Shown: one piece after another, positions 12,870 through 58,047 of the stretch
Numbering within the stretch: the first letter of the stretch is position 1
Layout of the letters: every line of letters starts with the position of its first letter
Source: Dehalogenimonas etheniformans
GTDB taxonomy: Bacteria; Chloroflexota; Dehalococcoidia; Dehalococcoidales; Dehalococcoidaceae
Assembly: GCF_014672715.2 (NCBI RefSeq)
Contig: NZ_CP058566.2
Span: 124,001-188,000 of the forward strand
Length of the DNA stretch: 64,000 bases
Direction of reading: 5' to 3'
Position numbers and translations under genes: made by a program
The notes under the pieces: model-generated
What the model saw: the letters and a program-made list of their open reading frames with translations, nothing else
Databases searched by the model: none
What the model was told of the DNA's origin: nothing

Positions 12870-15800
12870 TTACTTCTTGCCGCCTTTAGGTGCTAACAGA
12901 CCTACCGAGTTGCTGCAATCCGCAAACGGGATGTTTGCAGTATCTTTTGCAGCCCCCGGAGTAGCACGTTGGGTGGGTGGCAGGCTGGGATCGAAGGCTA
13001 CGTCATCGCCACTATTGTTGTAGGTATCAAGAACCGAATTCAACGTATTGATGGCGGTGATGTCGTCACCATAGAGAATGGCCGCGATTTCAGCCGCGCT
13101 GTAACCGGCGGGCAGCGGAGCTCCACCCGGAGTAACGCTGTTCAGGATGGCTGCCAAGGCCTGTTGAGAAGCAATCATCCGAGCCTGACACAGTGCATCG
13201 CGTTTTGAGCCGTCTGAGTTCTTGGCATTGTTACCCCAGAACACACCCATCAGGTCATCGATGTTGGTGATCGGGGGGAGCCAACCGAGGTCGATGGAAC
13301 CAAGATTGTCGTCGGCAACCATGTCACCGGTGTAGGTGTCGAAGATGTACTCGGTGAACCAAAGATGGGTAGCCCAGAAACCTTGAGTTCGGGTGAAGAA
13401 GTTGACCTCGACGATAAAGGTGTCAAACTCGCTATCAAAGGAGACATCAGGATCTTCCGGATTGTAGTCGACGGGATTGCCGAGAGGATCGGTTCCGTGA
13501 CCCCAAACCTCAAAGGTGGTTGTCTCCGAGATAGTGTAGGTAACCTGCCATGTCCATGATTCTCCGGGGTCCATGATATCGTCTGAATTTCCGCCGGAGA
13601 AACCTGTGACATCAGACCAATCGTAGCTGTCGAACACTGTTTCTACGCCGCCAACAAGCAACCTAACGTGAATATGAGCGTCGGTAAGCGGAACATCACC
13701 GTCATTAGTATCGGTGATGGTCAGTTCGACGTTGCCGGTAAGTGTGTCGTAGACATATACGACTGTGCTCATGGTGGTGTTGGGCAGTTTGATGGTGTTG
13801 GTGATAGTGCTGGTTGCGCAGGTGGCGCCAGCGCTGACTTCCACATCGCCTCCACCAGTAACCGTCCACATGATCCCCGGGTCACTCTCAGTGACATTGT
13901 ATGTACCAGGGATTAGGTTGTTGAGTGTCCAAGGCGAACCTGACAAAACGCCGTTAGTCACTACGAAGTCATGGGAGGTACCACCTGGATAAGACGGACC
14001 AGTCACTGTGGCGGTAAAGGTGACGTTGATGGTATCGGGGAACACATAACCGGTGAGGTCGACAACCTTGGTGACGGTGAGGCAGCCGTCGGCGAAGGTA
14101 TTGACCACGGTGGCCGTGGCGCAAGTAGCGCCGGCCGAGACGGCCACGACGCCGAGGCCGCTGGTGTTGCTCCAGCCGGCGGGCAGGGTGGGCTCGGTCA
14201 GGGTGTAGTTGCCGGGGATAAGGTTATTAAGGGTCTGCGGATTGGTGCCGGTGATGGCGCCGTCAGTCAGGGTGAAGGTGAGGTCGGTGCCGGCCGGGTA
14301 GGACGGGCCGACGACATGGATGACGAAGCTGCCATCGAGGGCGGCGGGATTGACTACATCCTGGACGACGGACTTGGTGACGGTGAGGCAGCCGTCGGCG
14401 AAGGTATTGACCACGGTGGCCGTGGCGCAAGTAGCGCCGGCGGAGACAGCCACAACGCCGAGGCCGCTGGTATTGCTCCAGCCGGCGGGCAGGGTGGGCT
14501 CGGTCAGGGTGTAGTTACCGGGGATGAGGTTATTAAGGGTCTGCGGATTGGTGCCGGTGATGGCGCCGTCAGTCAGGGTGAAGGTGAGGTCGGTGCCGGC
14601 CGGGTAGGACGGGCCGACGACATGGATGACGAAGCTGCCATCGAGGGCGGCGGGATTGACTACATCCTGGACGACGGACTTGGTGATGGTGAGGCAGCCG
14701 TCGGCGAAGGAGTTGACCACGGTGGCCGTGGCGCAGGTAGCGCCGGCGGAGACGGCCACGACGCCGAGGCCGCTGGTGTTGCTCCAGCCGGCGGGCAGGG
14801 TGGGCTCGGTCAGGGTGTAGTTACCGGGGATGAGGTTATTAAGGGTCTGCGGATTGGTGCCGGTGATGGCGCCGTCAGTCAGGGTGAAGGTGAGGTCGGT
14901 GCCGGCCGGGTAGGACGGGCCGACGACATGGATGACGAAGCTGCCATCGAGGGCGGCGGGATTGACTACATCCTGGACGACGGACTTGGTGATGGTGAGG
15001 CAGCCGTCGGCGAAGGAGTTGACCACGGTGGCCGTGGCGCAGGTAGCGCCGGCGGAGACGGCCACGACGCCGAGGCCGCTGGTGTTGCTCCAGCCGGCGG
15101 GCAGGGTGGGCTCGGTCAGGGTGTAGTTACCGGGGATGAGGTTATTAAGGGTCTGCGGATTGGTGCCGGTGATGGCGCCGTCAGTCAGGGTGAAGGTGAG
15201 GTCGGTGCCGGCCGGGTAGGACGGGCCGACGACATGGATGACGAAGCTGCCATCGAGGGCGGCGGGATTGACTACATCCTGGACGACGGACTTGGTGATG
15301 GTGAGGCAGCCGTCGGCGAAGGAGTTGACCACGGTGGCCGTGGCGCAGGTAGCGCCGGCGGAGACGGCCACGACGCCGAGGCCGCTGGTGTTGCTCCAGC
15401 CGGCGGGCAGGGTGGGCTCGGTCAGGGTGTAGTTACCGGGGATGAGGTTATTAAGGGTCTGCGGATTGGTGCCGGTGATGGCGCCGTCAGTCAGGGTGAA
15501 GGTGAGGTCGGTGCCGGCCGGGTAGGACGGGCCGACGACATGGATGACGAAGCTGCCATCGAGGGCGGCGGGATTGACTACATCCTGGACGACGGACTTG
15601 GTGATGGTGAGACAGCCATTATTTACGTTGCCGAAGTTGACGTTGGTCTGATCAGGGTTGGCTTCCGTTAAAGTGACGATCCAACCCCAGGCGGCGAGGT
15701 GTGCCGGACCAATGGCTGCCTGAATTTCCGCCGGGAAACCAGTGATCAATGAAGATACGGCTCCGGGCGCAACGTTTACTACGCTGTTAGGATATGTCTG

Positions 15801-16103
15801 TGTCCAGCCTGGTAAAAGGTCAGGGGGTGGGGTTGGATTATTGGGACCCAGATGTTCACCCACATACCAGTTACCAAAGGTAATATTGTCGACCAGATAG
15901 AAACCATTAGAATCGGTAGTGTAGTGGGTATTAACGACAATACCACCTTCAACCTGGGCATAGACGTGAATTTCCCAATTCGGGATTCCAGGTTCGGTAG
16001 GTTGATCCCAAATGTGGTTATTATTCAGGTCGTTGAATTTGTATCCACTAAGAGACGCGGGCGGGGTTGGCGGGATAAAAGCCTGTCCACCGTCCGTGTT
16101 CAT
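12870..16103 (-). CDS. large surface protein: SdrD-B-like domain, five identical Ig/transthyretin-like repeats
   Basis: 1077 residues. Residues about 15-95 form an SdrD B-like domain (SLSGYKFNDLNNNHIWDQPTE). Then come five 102-residue repeats beginning GCLTITKSVVQDVVNPAALDG and ending in SAGATCATATVVN, a sixth divergent repeat, and a C-terminal region with RTQGFWATH and a Cys pair. Repeats of this kind build extracellular stalks. The N-terminus (MNTDGGQAFIPP) shows no signal peptide, an in-frame TAA lies four codons upstream, and no ribosome site is visible. The start may be wrong, or the 5' end has been lost by rearrangement next to the repeat at 16.1 kb. Product likely extracellular, but export is unproven. 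Confidence 0.8.
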   Translation of the reverse strand: MNTDGGQAFIPPTPPASLSGYKFNDLNNNHIWDQPTEPGIPNWEIHVYAQVEGGIVVNTHYTTDSNGFYLVDNITFGNWYVGEHLGPNNPTPPPDLLPGWTQTYPNSVVNVAPGAVSSLITGFPAEIQAAIGPAHLAAWGWIVTLTEANPDQTNVNFGNVNNGCLTITKSVVQDVVNPAALDGSFVIHVVGPSYPAGTDLTFTLTDGAITGTNPQTLNNLIPGNYTLTEPTLPAGWSNTSGLGVVAVSAGATCATATVVNSFADGCLTITKSVVQDVVNPAALDGSFVIHVVGPSYPAGTDLTFTLTDGAITGTNPQTLNNLIPGNYTLTEPTLPAGWSNTSGLGVVAVSAGATCATATVVNSFADGCLTITKSVVQDVVNPAALDGSFVIHVVGPSYPAGTDLTFTLTDGAITGTNPQTLNNLIPGNYTLTEPTLPAGWSNTSGLGVVAVSAGATCATATVVNSFADGCLTITKSVVQDVVNPAALDGSFVIHVVGPSYPAGTDLTFTLTDGAITGTNPQTLNNLIPGNYTLTEPTLPAGWSNTSGLGVVAVSAGATCATATVVNTFADGCLTVTKSVVQDVVNPAALDGSFVIHVVGPSYPAGTDLTFTLTDGAITGTNPQTLNNLIPGNYTLTEPTLPAGWSNTSGLGVVAVSAGATCATATVVNTFADGCLTVTKVVDLTGYVFPDTINVTFTATVTGPSYPGGTSHDFVVTNGVLSGSPWTLNNLIPGTYNVTESDPGIMWTVTGGGDVEVSAGATCATSTITNTIKLPNTTMSTVVYVYDTLTGNVELTITDTNDGDVPLTDAHIHVRLLVGGVETVFDSYDWSDVTGFSGGNSDDIMDPGESWTWQVTYTISETTTFEVWGHGTDPLGNPVDYNPEDPDVSFDSEFDTFIVEVNFFTRTQGFWATHLWFTEYIFDTYTGDMVADDNLGSIDLGWLPPITNIDDLMGVFWGNNAKNSDGSKRDALCQARMIASQQALAAILNSVTPGGAPLPAGYSAAEIAAILYGDDITAINTLNSVLDTYNNSGDDVAFDPSLPPTQRATPGAAKDTANIPFADCSNSVGLLAPKGGKK
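14081..15610 (-). repeat. five tandem 306-bp coding repeats
   Basis: Units start at 14081, 14387, 14693, 14999 and 15305, each 306 bases (102 codons). The units from 14693 onward read as identical; the first two differ at a few bases. The near identity implies recent duplication or gene conversion, and copy number may vary or be collapsed in assembly. Confidence 0.97.
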
Positions 16104-16469: not shown

Positions 16470-16498
16470 TTGACATATGCGAGCGTCAACCCTATTAT
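16470..16498 (+). promoter_or_regulatory. consensus promoter of the cyclase/UbiA/methyltransferase cluster
   Basis: TTGACA (16470-16475), exactly 17 bases, TATTAT (16493-16498). Expected start near 16505, giving a leader of about 158 bases before the ATG at 16663. Confidence 0.7.
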
Positions 16499-16662
16499 TT
16501 AGAACCGTTCGCGCCGAAAAATCGGGGCATTAGACCAGATTCAAGCCTAACGCGCTATCTCTTAATTCTTTACCGGCGGCGGCTTGCGGCCATTTAAAAC
16601 ATTGGGCTCGACCACGACACAGGCAGGGCTGCCTGTAGTACCAGTCAGGGCAAGGAGTGTTG

Positions 16663-17430
16663 ATGGAAACTATCGCGCCGGTGAAAGACCCGGGGTTCGA
16701 TTCCGAGGAAGCCCGTAAACGCAAGAAATATATGGTGGACCTGTTCGTGGTCCAGGCCAAGAACTACGATTTCCACGACGACATCTATGGCCTATACGCC
16801 CATCGGCTGTGGGTGCGCACCATGGTCAACATCCTCAAGAAATACATGAAGAAGAAGCAGCGCGCCGACATGCTGGACATGGGCTGCGGCACCGGCTTCG
16901 TTACTTTCAATGTCGCCCGGAAAATCCCGGCCGTCGACAATATCGAATCCTTCGACCTCTCACCGGACATGATCAAGGTGGCCAAGGAACGCTACGAAAA
17001 AGGCTTTAAAAGCCGCAAAATCAAGTTCTGGGTAGCCGACGCCGAGATCCCATTCGGTAGCAACAAATATGACATCGTCACCACCTCCTTCGCCTTCCGT
17101 AACTTCGCCAACAAGAACCTGGCTACCAAGAACGTCTTCAACGCCCTGAAACCCGGCGGCATTTTTATCATCCAGGACCTGACCAAGCCCGAGAAGCACC
17201 CGATGAAAGGCCTGTACGCCTTCTACATGAAATTCATCCTGCCGATCTTCGCCAAGGTTCTGGGCACCGAGAGAACGGCGGCGGGCTGGCTCAAGAAAAG
17301 CACCGACATAATGCCGACCAACTCCCAGCTCCAGAAAATCCTGGAAGACAACGGCATGGTCAATTGCTACCACAAGAGCCTTTCGGCGGGCATCGCCTGC
17401 ATCATCGTCGGGTTCAAACCGGAGGCATAG
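16663..17430 (+). CDS. UbiE/COQ5-like SAM methyltransferase (first of a tandem pair)
   Basis: A 255-residue class I methyltransferase. SAM motif I is LDMGCGTG (71-78), and the acidic residue after strand 2 is in ESFDLSPDM. The sequence TTSFAFRNFANKN (140-152) matches the UbiE marker '(G)xRNxxD' region, then LKPGG. A C-terminal part rich in aromatic residues (GLYAFYMKFILPIFAKVLG) suggests contact with a lipid or quinol-like substrate. The ATG at 16663 is preferred over GTG 16657 because AAGGAG ends five bases upstream. First gene of the cluster and a clear paralogue of the next one. Substrate unknown. Confidence 0.88.
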   Translation: METIAPVKDPGFDSEEARKRKKYMVDLFVVQAKNYDFHDDIYGLYAHRLWVRTMVNILKKYMKKKQRADMLDMGCGTGFVTFNVARKIPAVDNIESFDLSPDMIKVAKERYEKGFKSRKIKFWVADAEIPFGSNKYDIVTTSFAFRNFANKNLATKNVFNALKPGGIFIIQDLTKPEKHPMKGLYAFYMKFILPIFAKVLGTERTAAGWLKKSTDIMPTNSQLQKILEDNGMVNCYHKSLSAGIACIIVGFKPEA

Positions 17431-17432
17431 GG

Positions 17433-18200
17433 ATGGCGGCGGGAACAGCGGAGCGGCACTTACAGGACCCCGGCTTCGACTCCGAGGCGGCAAAAAAGCG
17501 CAAGGCGTACATGCTGGAACTTTTCGGCTACCAGGCGCCAAAATACGATCTTACCGACGACATCATCGGCCTGGGCATCCACCGCCGATGGGTCAAGGAT
17601 GTCTTGAAGGTCATCGGCCACTATAAAAAAGACAAATCCAATCTGAAAATGCTCGACTTGGCCTGCGGCACGGGCTTCGTCACCTTCAATACGGCCAGAA
17701 ATTTTAACGATATCGAAATTGATGCCTTCGACCTGGTTCCAGAGATGGTCGGGGTAGCCAAGAAACGCTACGACAAGGACTTCAAGGGAAGGGCGATCAA
17801 ATTCTGGGTCGGTGATTCCGAGGTGCCCTACGGCGAAAACAAGTATGATGTCATCACCACATGTTTCGCCTTCCGCAACTTCATGAACAAGAATCTGGCG
17901 GCGCAGAACGTTTTCAAGGCGTTAAAGCCCGGCGGCATGTTCATTATTCAGGACATGACCAAGCCGGAACACCAGCCTCTCAGGGGAATTTATCTGTTTG
18001 CCTTGAAGTACATGTTGCCCCTGGCCGGGTTCGTCCTGGGCACCGCGAAAGGGTCGCCGCGATACCTGTATAATTCCGTTATGCTCCTGCCGAAGAACAC
18101 CGACATCGCCAAAATCCTTACCGACAACGGCTTCAAGGACGTGTGGCACAAGTACCAAAGCGGCGGCATGGGCACGGTGGTGGTGGGTTACAAGAAATGA
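17433..18200 (+). CDS. UbiE/COQ5-like SAM methyltransferase (second of the pair)
   Basis: A 255-residue paralogue of the preceding protein, in register through the shared DPGFDSE..KKRKxYM opening, motif I LDLACGTG (74-81), TTCFAFRNFMNKN and LKPGGMFIIQDMTKPE. It begins two bases after the upstream stop with GGAGG as ribosome site and overlaps the cyclase by ATGA. Two similar enzymes kept side by side suggest two successive methylations, or a heterodimer, on one scaffold. Different C-termini argue for different positions on the substrate. Confidence 0.88.
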   Translation: MAAGTAERHLQDPGFDSEAAKKRKAYMLELFGYQAPKYDLTDDIIGLGIHRRWVKDVLKVIGHYKKDKSNLKMLDLACGTGFVTFNTARNFNDIEIDAFDLVPEMVGVAKKRYDKDFKGRAIKFWVGDSEVPYGENKYDVITTCFAFRNFMNKNLAAQNVFKALKPGGMFIIQDMTKPEHQPLRGIYLFALKYMLPLAGFVLGTAKGSPRYLYNSVMLLPKNTDIAKILTDNGFKDVWHKYQSGGMGTVVVGYKK

Positions 18201-19303
18201 ATTTGAACATGGCTGAACTCCAGACCCTGCAATATGATATCGGCGGTGGCAGATACCGACCGATCTACATCGGACGCAACATCCTCGACCGGTTGGGCGA
18301 ATGCGCCAGGGCCCTTAACGCTGACCGGTTCTTCATCGTTACGGACAACACCGTAGCCAGCGTGTTCCTGGAACCGGTGCTGGCCCAACTTGAGAAGGTT
18401 GCCCCGACCAAAGCCTTCGTCTTCCCGGCCGGAGAGCAGTCCAAGACGCTGACCACTCTCGAATCTCTTGGCGCCCAGATACTCGACGCCCATGCCACCA
18501 AGTCCTCAATCATCGTTTGCCTTGGCGGCGGCGTCGTCGGCAACCTCGGAGGACTTTTAGCAGCGCTTCTTTTCCGCGGCATCCGCTTTTTCCACGTTCC
18601 CACGACCATGGTGGCTCAGATAGACTCCTCGATCGGCCAGAAGCAGGCGGTTAATTATAAAAAGGGCAAGAACCTCTTCGGCCAGTACTATCCGCCGGAA
18701 TTCGTCTTTATCGACTTCGCCTTCCTGCGGCAGTTGCCGGCAAGGCAGATCAGGGCTGGACTCGCCGAATCCGTCAAGCACGGCCTGTGCCAGGAAGAAA
18801 GCTTCTTCGAATACATCGGATCCAGAGCTCCTGATTTTACCTGGGACGATATCGAATACATCTCCGCCCACACCATCGAATTGAAACTGGAACTGTTGAA
18901 AATCGATCCCTATGAGGGCAAACTTGATCCGCAACTGGAACTCGGCCACACCATCGGCCATGCCCTCGAGATCAGAAAAAACGGCCAGTTACTCCATGGC
19001 GAGGCCATTGCCATCGGCATGACCGTAGAGGCCAAGATCTCGGCAGCGCTGGGTTTCATGGACCCCGCCCTCGCCATCCGCATCGAGAATATTTTCAAGA
19101 AGATCGGTCTGCCGACGCGCATCCCGCCTGAGATCTCCATCGAAGAAATCCTGGAAACGCTGACCTTCGACAACAAGCGGCGCACCGCCATCAACGACTT
19201 CTTCCTGCTGGCGCAGTTCTGCCATTTCCACAAGGAGAACGGCAAGATCGCCTGCAAGGTGCCGGAATTAGTGTTGAGGCAAGTCCTTGAGAGCGCTTAC
19301 TAA
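18197..19303 (+). CDS. sugar-phosphate cyclase of the dehydroquinate synthase superfamily, DOIS-like
   Basis: NAD- and metal-dependent cyclase, 368 residues. It has GGGVVGNLGG (110-119, where AroB has GGGVIGDLAG), VPTTMVAQIDSSIG and the metal ligands E191 (GLAES), H251 (LGHTIGHALE) and H267 (LLHGEA). It departs from true DHQ synthase at substrate residues: KQAVN replaces KVAVN, and the R...NLGHT segment of AroB reads DPYEGKLDPQLELGHT. From memory that pattern resembles 2-deoxy-scyllo-inosose synthases, which use glucose 6-phosphate. A genuine aroB lies at 56971-58047, so this copy is not needed for the shikimate pathway. Start chosen for the ATGA overlap; ATG 18209 is the alternative. Confidence 0.82.
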   Translation: MNLNMAELQTLQYDIGGGRYRPIYIGRNILDRLGECARALNADRFFIVTDNTVASVFLEPVLAQLEKVAPTKAFVFPAGEQSKTLTTLESLGAQILDAHATKSSIIVCLGGGVVGNLGGLLAALLFRGIRFFHVPTTMVAQIDSSIGQKQAVNYKKGKNLFGQYYPPEFVFIDFAFLRQLPARQIRAGLAESVKHGLCQEESFFEYIGSRAPDFTWDDIEYISAHTIELKLELLKIDPYEGKLDPQLELGHTIGHALEIRKNGQLLHGEAIAIGMTVEAKISAALGFMDPALAIRIENIFKKIGLPTRIPPEISIEEILETLTFDNKRRTAINDFFLLAQFCHFHKENGKIACKVPELVLRQVLESAY

Positions 19304-20213
19304 CCAGACCAACGTGCCTTTCGGTGTCTGGGTACAGGCAGCCCGCCTGAAATTCCTGCCCCAGGGAGTGTTTCCCGTTCTCATCGCCGGGGCTGCCGCT
19401 TTTGCCGCCGGGGTCTTCAACCCGCTGTATTTCATTATTGCCTTACTGGCGGCGGCTGCAGTGCAAATTGGCCTCACTATGTTTAATGATACTCTCGACT
19501 TCCAATACGGCACCGACAGGTCCATCATCGAAACCAAGAACCCATTTTCAGGAGGTTCCGGTGTCCTGGCTTCCGGGAGGGTCAAACCGAAGCAGGCGAT
19601 GACGGTCATTGTCGGGTTGTACATCTTCGCACTCATCTGCGGCATCTTTTTCGCTTTTGCCGCCGGAATCGAGAGCCTTTACATCGCCGGGATCGGCGCG
19701 TTCATCTCGATCGCGTACTCCGCCCGACCATTCCGATTGGCTTACAGGGGGCTCGGAGAACTGGCGATGCTTATAGGCTACGGGCCGGTGCTCACTGCCT
19801 GGGCTTACCTCGTCCACGCCTCAACAGTCCCTCTCGATATCGTGCTCGTCGGCATTATCCCAGGCCTCTGCATGTGGACGATGATCCTCATTAACGAAAT
19901 CCCGGATTATGCAGAGGATAAGGCGGCGGGCAAGAAGAACCTGACCTATAGATTGACTCCTGAGGGTTCGAAAAACCTGTTCATCGCTTCGCTGATCACC
20001 ATTTACGCATACGTTGCGGTTTTGATCGTCGCCAAGGTATTGCCACCACTGGCGTCTCTGGCATTCCTGGGGATCCCATTGGCAATGGCGGCAGGTCAGA
20101 TAGCGAGTCGGGAGTTCGGAGACCCCCTCAAAATTGCCAAGGCGAACAAGTACATGGTATTAATATATTCTCTCACTAACGCCGCCGTAGCCGTCGGTTT
20201 CCTGGCGGCGTGA
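19287..20213 (+). CDS. UbiA-superfamily prenyltransferase (MenA-like)
   Basis: Integral membrane enzyme that joins a polyprenyl chain to an acceptor. 308 residues with eight to nine hydrophobic helices. Both Asp-rich metal/diphosphate motifs are present: NDTLDFQYGTD (67-77) and NEIPDYAEDKAAGKKNL (203-219). The arrangement is closest to MenA-type members rather than UbiA proper or chlorophyll synthase. The TTG start (19287) overlaps the cyclase and has GAGG seven bases upstream. No menaquinone ring-forming genes are in the window; the acceptor may be the cyclase-derived ring. Confidence 0.9.
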   Translation: MRALTNQTNVPFGVWVQAARLKFLPQGVFPVLIAGAAAFAAGVFNPLYFIIALLAAAAVQIGLTMFNDTLDFQYGTDRSIIETKNPFSGGSGVLASGRVKPKQAMTVIVGLYIFALICGIFFAFAAGIESLYIAGIGAFISIAYSARPFRLAYRGLGELAMLIGYGPVLTAWAYLVHASTVPLDIVLVGIIPGLCMWTMILINEIPDYAEDKAAGKKNLTYRLTPEGSKNLFIASLITIYAYVAVLIVAKVLPPLASLAFLGIPLAMAAGQIASREFGDPLKIAKANKYMVLIYSLTNAAVAVGFLAA

Positions 20214-20283
20214 AGTCATTCGCGATAACACTACGATTAAATAGACATCCAAACGACTTGGGCATGTACGAACGGAGACCCGA

Positions 20284-20628
20284 ATGAAAAACGGACAGGA
20301 ACTCCAGTGTTACCGTGAAGCCCTGGACGACCATAAAGAAGCGAAGAGGATCATCAGCGAAATCTCCAAGCTCACTGCCGAGGTATCCAACTGCCTTAGC
20401 ACTGAGCCTTACAGGCTGACGATTTCCGGGTTCGGCATGGATATGCCGTTGAAACCTGAATTCGCTGGAAAGCAACTGGTGTGCGCGCCGGGGCAATGGC
20501 CGACCGAGCAGAACCTGGCTGAGGCGGTGAACCGCCAGTACAAAACCGAGAAAGCGCTGCACAAAGCCTGGGCGAAACTTTCACCCGAAGAAAAGAAACA
20601 GGTCGAACCGCCACCGGCTTCGAAATAG
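20284..20628 (+). CDS. hypothetical protein in the UbiA cluster
   Basis: A 114-residue soluble protein with no family recognised. The first 40 residues are helical and charged (possible short coiled coil). The centre has ISGFGMDMPLKPEFAGKQLVCAPGQWP, and the C-terminus is helical with a Pro-rich tail. There are two cysteines but no motif. It lies 70 bases after the prenyltransferase and 12 before the third methyltransferase, with GGAG before the ATG. Position suggests an accessory role in the same pathway. Confidence 0.65.
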   Translation: MKNGQELQCYREALDDHKEAKRIISEISKLTAEVSNCLSTEPYRLTISGFGMDMPLKPEFAGKQLVCAPGQWPTEQNLAEAVNRQYKTEKALHKAWAKLSPEEKKQVEPPPASK

Positions 20629-20640
20629 TTAGGACGGAAA

Positions 20641-21273
20641 ATGGTAGAACCGAAATTTTTTGAAACTATCGCCCCGCTGTACGACTTCCTGACGAAGCTG
20701 TTCATGGGTGGCACCTATGAGAGCATGAGGAAACGGATGCTCAACGAGGACACTTCGCAAATGGAGATCCTAGATCTTTGCTGTGGCACAGGTTACATCA
20801 GCAACACTATTGTCGCCAAGAGGATAGTCGGTCTCGACCAGTCCGACGCCATGCTGGCCAGGAACGCCAAGGTGAAGCGGCCAAATAAGGAACTGATCAA
20901 GGGCAACGCCTACCAGGTTCAGTTCAAGGATGCCGAGTTCGATCGAATCTACAATTCCAGCGCCTCGCACGAATTCAAACTTTTCTCACGACTGCTGCAG
21001 AAAAGCTACCAGGCGCTTAAACCCGGCGGCAAAATAATCATTTTCGACATCTACCAGCCGAAAAACCGCGTATTGTCCTTCTTTATGAACACTTTTGTCC
21101 GTTACGTAGTGGAGCGCGGCATCATGTTTGTCCATACCAAAGAGGAGTGGAGGCAGATGCTTACGGAAGCAGGATTCGAAGTCGAAGAACTCGAACCAGT
21201 ACGTGGGCTTTATATCTTCGTTAAAGCGGTCAAACCATTGCAGGGGAAATTGCCTTTGACGACGGCGGGTTAA
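20641..21273 (+). CDS. class I SAM methyltransferase (third in the cluster)
   Basis: 210 residues. It opens with FFETIAPLYDFLTKL, a UbiE/MenG-like N-terminus. Motif I is LDLCCGTG (44-51), and the later motifs appear as NSSASHEF and LKPGGKIIIFDIYQ. It is shorter and more distant than the tandem pair at 16.7-18.2 kb, so it likely acts on another position or intermediate. Last enzyme gene of the cluster; the following small gene has its own -10 box. Confidence 0.85.
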   Translation: MVEPKFFETIAPLYDFLTKLFMGGTYESMRKRMLNEDTSQMEILDLCCGTGYISNTIVAKRIVGLDQSDAMLARNAKVKRPNKELIKGNAYQVQFKDAEFDRIYNSSASHEFKLFSRLLQKSYQALKPGGKIIIFDIYQPKNRVLSFFMNTFVRYVVERGIMFVHTKEEWRQMLTEAGFEVEELEPVRGLYIFVKAVKPLQGKLPLTTAG

Positions 21274-21375: not shown

Positions 21376-21699
21376 ATGGGACTGACACTCGGTGAAGCCA
21401 TCCGACACATCACCAACAAAAACTATGCGATAGTTGCCGCCGACCTCTTTGATGAGATCTTCGGCCGCAAGTATGGCGACGCCGCCAAAATCCCAGCCAG
21501 GGACAAGGGTTCCTGGCCGATCAAGATTGAAGACAAGTTGAAGGACACCCATTTCGCCAAGATGGTTGAAGGTGAATTCAAACGCACCCGCGTCGATATC
21601 GCCAGCGACACTTATCTGGAAGTAAAAAGGTGGCTGGAGGACGAGGTCGGGGTGCCCCATCCTTGTATCGACCACGATTTCAAACTGGGCGTAAAGTAA
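21376..21699 (+). CDS. hypothetical protein, 107 residues
   Basis: Small acidic/basic mixed protein with no family recognised (LGEAIRHITNKNYAIVAADLF at the start; VPHPCIDHDFKLGVK at the end). No membrane segment. The ATG is preceded by GGAGGAG ten bases upstream, and a TATACT box at 21305-21310 suggests its own transcript. A terminator follows at 21722. It could belong functionally to the cluster upstream, but the sequence gives no clue. Confidence 0.65.
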   Translation: MGLTLGEAIRHITNKNYAIVAADLFDEIFGRKYGDAAKIPARDKGSWPIKIEDKLKDTHFAKMVEGEFKRTRVDIASDTYLEVKRWLEDEVGVPHPCIDHDFKLGVK

Positions 21700-56321: not shown

Positions 56322-56971
56322 ACCTTCAAATGCCTATAAATCTCTGCCAATTGAGATACTGTCAACTGCCCGGGTGCCGATGATTGGCCGGAGTCGAGGG
56401 CCGCGTAGGTAAATTCAGCTCCGCAAAGGGGCGCCATAACCCGGCTTATTACACCTGCCTCGCCCATGGCGAAGGCGACCAGACTTTTGTCTGGGAACAG
56501 GTCGTATAGTCCCAGTAAGCTGAGACTGTCATCGATGGAGTTTGCGGTGGTCACCAGCTTACAGATATCGGCGCCAGCTGCCGTCAGCCGTTTTACAAGT
56601 TGCGGCAATACTTCAGGTGACGGAGTACCATTGAAATCATGGTGTGATATCAGACAACGAGCCTTCTTCTTGACCGCGGCAATCATATCCACCACGCTGG
56701 AAGTGACCAGCTCCAGATCGACTATGGATGCTCCAAGGTCAAGAGCTTTTATAAGCGCTTCCAGACGCGAATTTTCTGAACCCTGCCATTTGCCGCCCTG
56801 GGAAGCCAGGCGGTTGGTGGCGATCCAGGGCTTGTTCAGATTTTCGGCGATGGCCGGCCAATCTTGACCAATGAGATCGATACGGACCTCAAAAAGATTG
56901 ACCAGTGGCGCGGCGGTTCGAATCGCCGCCTCGTCGGGTTCGGTGATGACACCGCAAATCTTCAGTCTCAT
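56318..56971 (-). CDS. aroD: 3-dehydroquinate dehydratase, type I
   Basis: Schiff-base enzyme, 217 residues. LFEVRIDLI, LISHHDFNGTPS with the catalytic histidine, CKLVTTANS with the Schiff-base Lys, and the C-terminal SAPGQLTVSQLAEI. Overlaps aroB by one base. Confidence 0.95.
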   Translation of the reverse strand: MRLKICGVITEPDEAAIRTAAPLVNLFEVRIDLIGQDWPAIAENLNKPWIATNRLASQGGKWQGSENSRLEALIKALDLGASIVDLELVTSSVVDMIAAVKKKARCLISHHDFNGTPSPEVLPQLVKRLTAAGADICKLVTTANSIDDSLSLLGLYDLFPDKSLVAFAMGEAGVISRVMAPLCGAEFTYAALDSGQSSAPGQLTVSQLAEIYRHLKV

Positions 56972-58047
56972 TAAGTAAGTGCCTCAACAGCCAGGTTAGG
57001 GTCAATGTCATCTCGTAGTATGACACTGCCAATACCTGCGGGGAGAATGAATTTTAACTTGCCGGCAATTTTTTTCTTGTCATGACCCATCGCTTCAACG
57101 AAAGCTCCGGGCCGGTTTACATTAAAAGTAATCGGCAATCCAGCGTCAGCTATGACCTTGGTAACGCGGTCATAGTCTTCGACGGGCAGCAAACCGAGTC
57201 GGCGTGACAATCGAGCAGCGGCGGCAATCCCAACGGCAACGGCGGCGCCGTGTTTCATTTCGAATTTGGTGATGGTCTCTATGGCGTGTCCGAAGGTATG
57301 GCCCAGGTTCAACAGATTGCGGACTCCTTCATCGCGTTCATCTTGTTCAACTATGCGAGCCTTGACCACGGCCGAATGCTCAACGATAAATGAAAGCGCC
57401 TCAGGTTCCCGGTTGAGAATTCGGGACACATCAGTTTCAAGGAAGGCGAAAAGTTCAGGGTCGGCGATGATAGCAGACTTGATGACCTCGGCGAGGCCGT
57501 TGTGTAACTCCTCCAGAGGGAGAGTCGTCAGGGTGGAGATGTCGGTAACCACCATTTTCGGCTGGTAGAAAGCTCCCGCCATGTTCTTGAGCCTGCCGAC
57601 ATTAACGGCCACCTTGCCGCCGATGCTGGAATCTACCTGGGCAAGCAAAGTCGTCGGCACCTGAATAAACGGCACTCCGCGCTGGTAGGTGGAGGCGACA
57701 AACCCGGCGAGGTCGCCGATGACACCGCCGCCAAGAGCTATGATTGGGGTGCCGCGTTCGGCATGCTTTTTTGAAAGGCCTTCATAAAGGTGCCCGGCGG
57801 TTACGAGCGATTTGTAGGCTTCACCCTCGGGGACAAGAATGAGTTCAGGATCGAATCCGGCCGTCCGTAGCATCCCAAGAAGACGATTGCCGTAGAGTTC
57901 GGCGATGACAGGATTGGTGACCAGCATTAACCTGCCAGTGAAACCGGCCCTGGTCAAGAGTTCCGGCAAATGCCCAAGCATGCCCGCGCCTATGTGGATA
58001 GGGTAGCTGCGGTCGCCAAGGTCAATGGTAATCTGGGGATCTGACAT
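56971..58047 (-). CDS. aroB: 3-dehydroquinate synthase
   Basis: 358 residues, canonical. GGGVIGDLAGFVAS, VPTTLLAQVDSSIGGKVAVN, and metal ligands in GLAEVIKSA, LGHTFGHAIE and MKHGAAVAVG. Compare with the divergent family member at 18197. Four bases downstream of the DAHP synthase gene. Confidence 0.97.
   Translation of the reverse strand: MSDPQITIDLGDRSYPIHIGAGMLGHLPELLTRAGFTGRLMLVTNPVIAELYGNRLLGMLRTAGFDPELILVPEGEAYKSLVTAGHLYEGLSKKHAERGTPIIALGGGVIGDLAGFVASTYQRGVPFIQVPTTLLAQVDSSIGGKVAVNVGRLKNMAGAFYQPKMVVTDISTLTTLPLEELHNGLAEVIKSAIIADPELFAFLETDVSRILNREPEALSFIVEHSAVVKARIVEQDERDEGVRNLLNLGHTFGHAIETITKFEMKHGAAVAVGIAAAARLSRRLGLLPVEDYDRVTKVIADAGLPITFNVNRPGAFVEAMGHDKKKIAGKLKFILPAGIGSVILRDDIDPNLAVEALT

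Follow-up and report, generated by a model that had tools for sequence, protein, structure and literature searches.

A conserved cyclase, UbiA and methyltransferase operon in Dehalogenimonas etheniformans and its possible role in the formation of a sugar-derived prenyl lipid

The genome of Dehalogenimonas etheniformans carries an operon in which a sugar phosphate cyclase resembling 2-deoxy-scyllo-inosose synthase (DOIS) stands beside a MenA-like UbiA prenyltransferase and three methyltransferases. Judged from sequence, the chances are about even that the operon encodes a dedicated pathway in which a carbocycle derived from glucose 6-phosphate would be prenylated and methylated to a membrane lipid that might serve as a benzoquinone-like carrier. 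Because a ring-forming cyclase, the sole UbiA of the genome, and three quinone-type methylases are combined in one operon, an undiscovered membrane lipid may be made from sugar, possibly as an electron carrier. If confirmed, this would be a way to a prenylated ring that does not depend on chorismate. The dehalogenating hosts are among the main agents in the bioremediation of chlorinated solvents.

Gene layout, conservation, and distribution

The window (the whole stretch of 64,000 nt that was analyzed) belongs to a genome consisting of a single 2.07-Mb contig, and gene absences in this genome were judged by family searches. The promoter, methyltransferases, cyclase, UbiA, and small protein of the preliminary description, as well as the separate aroB that it had noted at 57 kb, were all found where it had placed them (Table 1). 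Its observation that the genes overlap or nearly touch as far as UbiA also held, as neighbors among MT1, MT2, the cyclase, and UbiA touch or overlap, with an ATGA overlap at the junction of MT2 and the cyclase and a 17-nt overlap between the cyclase and UbiA. The start codon of MT1 is probably the ATG at 16663. The small protein, although present here, is not part of the core. On the other strand upstream, at 12870-16103 (-), the window contains a gene for a putative surface protein of 1077 aa with about five near-identical SpaA/prealbumin-like repeats.

Table 1. Features of the cluster and of its surroundings, with positions in the window
Feature	Position	Strand	Remarks
Operon promoter TTGACA-N17-TATTAT	16470..16498	+	11/12 bases of consensus
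MT1, UbiE-type methyltransferase	16663..17430	+	PF01209 2e-43; SAM motif conserved
MT2, UbiE-type methyltransferase	17433..18200	+	PF01209 6e-36; MT1 paralogue, 53% identical
DOIS-type sugar phosphate cyclase, 368 aa	18197..19303	+	PF01761/PF24621
MenA-like UbiA prenyltransferase, TTG start	19287..20213	+	PF01040
Accessory protein, 114 aa	20284..20628	+	No family match; present in 2/6 genomes
MT3, class I SAM methyltransferase, distant UbiE relative	20641..21273	+	PF08241/PF01209
Protein of 107 aa after MT3	21376..21699	+	No family match; dN/dS 0.12, conserved in genus
AroB of the genome, outside the cluster (contrast)	56971..58047	-	Groups with AroB; residues D, V, R, N, K

The order MT1-MT2-cyclase-UbiA-MT3 is identical in six genomes from two genera (Dehalogenimonas- and Dehalococcoides-like) and recurs in three metagenome bins (L038-L040), of which L038 has a contig ending ahead of MT3 and L039 retains only the first codons of that gene. 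The neighborhood comparison proposed in the preliminary description therefore yielded conserved co-occurrence of the five enzymes in nine loci from three families (the Dehalogenimonas-/Dehalococcoides-like genera and two sister families), as far as the contigs of L038 and L039 reach, and MT3 lies downstream of UbiA in every locus of sufficient length. The UbiA gene of L038 contains stops, and its contig has about 6-fold coverage. Comparison with a congener gave dN/dS values of 0.04-0.10 across the five enzymes (MT1, 0.09; MT2, 0.05; MT3, 0.04). In each of the six genomes from the two genera, the promoter is found again 143-193 nt ahead of MT1, with 11/12 bases, and it forms the clearest conserved block in an upstream alignment of three congeners. 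Given the conserved order, low dN/dS, and conserved promoter, the five-enzyme operon is maintained as a unit and is under purifying selection.

A survey of the order detected the cyclase in 14 of 151 sampled genomes, namely all 11 of one family (f1) and three from two others (f86 and f73); it was not seen in any further family of the class sample. The phylum sample contained a single distant cyclase outside family f1 with no UbiA nearby: this DOIS-type cyclase, from a member of the Chloroflexota outside the class (L113), had neither UbiA nor UbiE in its neighborhood. The D. etheniformans genome has many reductive dehalogenase matches. RdhA matches were present in 13 of the 14 cluster genomes, linking the cluster with the organohalide-respiring lineage, and also in one genome without the cluster; the association is no independent test because the cluster genomes all fall in one part of the tree.

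Affinity of the cyclase

In a maximum likelihood tree of 76 sequences, the operon cyclase groups with DOIS-type sequences (support 100/99), with AroB forming a separate group (98/92), EEVS/DDGS another that is strongly supported, and EboD its own clade (100/100). When long branches were removed, the AroB group left out the operon cyclase at 100/98. Within the DOIS half of the tree, the operon cyclase branches deeply and separately, outside the core DOIS clade. The phylogeny that the preliminary description had proposed thus places the enzyme with DOIS and outside AroB; it amounts to strong support, not proof, of DOIS affinity, since the AU test did not reject a tree in which the cyclase and AroB were forced together (p 0.24 and 0.15).

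The residues agree with the tree. In BtrC numbering, N108, Q142, E243, and N321 are found in 9/9 operon cyclases and 28/28 DOIS-type sequences, whereas AroB has D, T/V, N, and K at these positions (27/27), and EEVS/DDGS and EboD lack the four DOIS-type residues. The patterns used to retrieve the DOIS comparison set came in part from the query and included E243, so position 243 is biased, while 108, 142, and 321 are not. Position 239 is Arg in 27/27 AroB sequences, Asp in the nine operon cyclases, and Ala/Gly in the 28 DOIS-type sequences. The absence of several AroB substrate residues, noted earlier from this one genome, therefore extends to the whole set, with Arg239, Asn243, and Lys321 replaced by Asp, Glu, and Asn in 9/9. 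We take the Arg and Asn of DHQ synthase to contact the substrate carboxylate and phosphate, and Glu243 to be specific to DOIS. As AroB-type residues are replaced by DOIS-type ones, the simplest reading would be a substrate that lacks the carboxylate of DAHP. Tree and residues together support an enzyme that is DOIS-like and distinct from the AroB of the shikimate pathway.

The same evidence disfavors a diverged AroB paralogue, that is, a DHQ synthase in an operon making an ordinary chorismate-derived quinone or prenyl phenol, which we regard as very unlikely even though the AU test leaves room for it. The best NCBIfam model for the cyclase is indeed that of aroB (TIGR01357), but the score of 284 bits is below the cut-off of 305, and an annotated DOIS scores similarly (263 bits, likewise below). 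The nearest fold to the AlphaFold model of the cyclase (pLDDT 92.4) is also a DHQS (Z 48.8, versus 44.9 for DOIS), in a comparison that is non-discriminating, every sugar phosphate cyclase giving a fit. Against a paralogue, a separate AroB is retained in 14/14 cluster genomes of the order survey, and the family searches of the D. etheniformans genome returned no MqnA and no menD above the cut-off (best match 74.5 bits against 244, presumably acetolactate synthase). G1P dehydrogenase with an archaeal-type ether lipid was rejected as a candidate, the G1PDH model scoring 48 bits against 284 for the AroB model.

Predicted pathway and the quinone question

The UbiA protein is the only one encoded in the D. 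etheniformans genome, and exactly one occurs in each of the 14 cluster genomes, many other members of the order having other or several UbiA genes. MenA models score best among the NCBIfam models; the protein is called MenA-like rather than MenA because its score with NF004751 (125 bits) is under the cut-off of 264. Both Asp-rich motifs (NDTLDFQYGTD and NEIPDYAED) are intact and conserved in the complete UbiA sequences, and UBIAD1 was the only solved structure matched by the sequence. MT1 is the best and MT2 the second-best UbiE match in the genome, with scores below the cut-offs of the NCBIfam UbiE models. The description of all three methyltransferases as UbiE-type stands for MT1 and MT2, but MT3 is a more distant relative. 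The genome has two polyprenyl synthase genes. Within the window, dxr is located 2.4 kb downstream of the cluster, and a GHMP kinase gene of the IspE type lies 1.7 kb downstream of it in the Dehalococcoides-like genomes; their proximity is consistent with a prenyl pathway, though it may be due to chance.

In the proposed pathway, the cyclase would convert a sugar phosphate, most likely glucose 6-phosphate, to a carbocycle of the 2-deoxy-scyllo-inosose type. Loss of water or enolization, whether enzymatic or spontaneous, could then give a polyhydroxylated, aromatic-like acceptor, to which the MenA-like UbiA would attach a polyprenyl chain, and MT1, MT2, and MT3 would methylate the head group. 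Chemical dehydration of 2-deoxy-scyllo-inosose can yield trihydroxybenzene, so O2 would not be needed to obtain a ring that already carries its oxygens. The pathway would end in a membrane lipid that might be benzoquinone-like, with ring oxygens from sugar and a need for neither chorismate nor O2. The literature searched on the aromatization chemistry of 2-deoxy-scyllo-inosose contained nothing relevant.

No dehydratase or oxidoreductase is found among the operon genes, which speaks for another product, a prenylated cyclitol lipid whose head group stays non-aromatic and whose role is protective or structural rather than redox, as has been suggested for ebo. Some UbiA enzymes prenylate non-aromatic acceptors, so the chemistry has parallels. 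Such a lipid nevertheless seems rather unlikely here: MenA-type UbiA enzymes, to which this one belongs, are known to act on a dihydroxy-aromatic, and UbiE-type methyltransferases such as MT1 and MT2 on prenylated hydroquinones. A non-redox lipid would also accord with published work, in which no quinones were found in membranes of D. mccartyi (PMC10772276) and Dehalococcoides and Dehalogenimonas are stated not to synthesize quinones (PMC5736913; PMC10772276).

As to quinones in this phylum, a 2026 survey lists the Chloroflexota among lineages without known quinone pathways and allows that unknown quinones may exist (PMC13386864), and a 2023 study of the OHR complex predicted in OmeB a quinone-like pocket with conserved protonatable residues, the ligand of which is not known (PMC10772276). 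We tentatively raise the idea, itself on the unlikely side, that Dehalococcoides and Dehalogenimonas make a respiratory benzoquinone with a ring derived from glucose 6-phosphate rather than chorismate, and that this compound fills the predicted OmeB pocket. The presence of quinone-tailoring enzymes and a cyclase of the sugar-ring type in one conserved operon makes the puzzle of the OmeB ligand testable.

Comparison with known systems and other loci

The preliminary description knew of no pathway with this gene set. In the literature searched, which covered few subscription journals, no description of the full set in the Dehalococcoidaceae was found, but cyclase and UbiA already occur as a pair in the ebo operon and in the BE-40644 pathway (PMC5133447). 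In the former, the UbiA protein EboC and the cyclase EboD are proposed to give an isoprenoid-cyclitol product; in the latter, a farnesylated secondary metabolite of Actinoplanes, an EEVS cyclase using sedoheptulose 7-phosphate is followed by a UbiA-type prenyltransferase (PMC5133447). The operon described here is thus a variant of isoprenoid-cyclitol clusters, the pairing itself having precedents.

The operon resembles ebo in being conserved and in joining a sugar phosphate cyclase to a UbiA prenyltransferase. Unlike in ebo, the cyclase belongs to another clade (170 bits with NF004852, versus 571 for EboD), the UbiA is MenA-like, and three methyltransferases take the place of EboB, EboE, and EboF. 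The EboC model NF035940, which does match a known EboC, gave no match to the operon UbiA at E <= 0.01, and tblastn at 1e-5 found no relatives of EboB, EboE, or EboF in loci L032, L034, and L038-L040. Membership in EBO is ruled out by cyclase clade, UbiA subfamily, and lack of these relatives. BE-40644 shares the succession of a cyclitol-forming cyclase and a UbiA-type prenyltransferase, but its cyclase is of the EEVS type and no UbiE set has been described there.

For the cyclases of these known pairs, use of sedoheptulose 7-phosphate is either assumed or demonstrated (PMC5133447), and the same operon logic could apply here with that C7 sugar as substrate, leading to a valiolone-type prenyl lipid of the kind put forward for ebo and reported for BE-40644. 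Besides the two precedents, Asp239 would fit such a departure, since it sets the operon cyclase apart from the DOIS-type sequences. The separate, strongly supported placement of EEVS/DDGS and EboD and their lack of the four DOIS-type residues make a C7 substrate unlikely, and glucose 6-phosphate is preferred. DOIS itself (BtrC, PDB 2D2X/2GRU) falls on the same side of the tree as the operon cyclase and has N108, KQAVN, E235, E243, and DNKR in common with it. The two differ in that identity is about 31-36%, the operon cyclase has IGQ before KQAVN and Leu244 (Tyr244 in DOIS) in addition to Asp239, and it adjoins UbiA and UbiE genes instead of lying in an aminoglycoside cluster. The tail steps of menaquinone synthesis (MenA and MenG/UbiE) likewise combine a MenA-like UbiA with UbiE-type methylation; here, by contrast, MqnA was not found and menD has no match above its cut-off, the MenA and UbiE scores are under the cut-offs, and the ring-forming cyclase is in the operon.

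It counts against the proposed pathway that no UbiA was found within about 7 kb of other DOIS-type loci, with one exception, an ebo-like operon of Paenibacillus planticolens (L055:750-7655 (+), NZ_WHNZ01000016.1) where EboD is replaced by a DOIS-type cyclase. Its EboC scores 264 bits, above the NCBIfam cut-off of 250, relatives of EboB and EboF lie alongside, and an IolE-like (inosose dehydratase) protein reaches 275 of 290 bits. By its sequence, this operon combines a DOIS-type cyclase with an EboC-type UbiA independently of the cluster described here, which speaks for the proposed pathway.

In other Dehalococcoidales, a MenA-like UbiA and UbiE adjoin a 569-aa ORF (L092:3729-7089 (-) and L104:6039-9402 (+)), which in L092 is a B12/radical-SAM protein of TIGR04190 (Ta0216 family). 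Pairs of UbiA and UbiE also occur in L094, L103, and L106, an MqnA match is found in few genomes of the order, and these loci possibly serve a methylated menaquinone route. A cyclase of the DOIS half in a member of the Planctomycetota (L041:4569-8873, NVWA01000038.1) lies beside an FGGY sugar kinase and a xylose-isomerase-like TIM barrel protein, without UbiA, and is in a different cyclitol context. A search of plasmids retrieved annotated DOIS in few records, the remainder being AroB-like or other cyclases. Plasmid pHS1 of Sodalis praecaptivus (NZ_CP006570.1) encodes an annotated 2-deoxy-scyllo-inosose synthase together with glycosyltransferase, PIG-L deacetylase, and radical SAM genes, a possible plasmid-borne aminocyclitol cluster.
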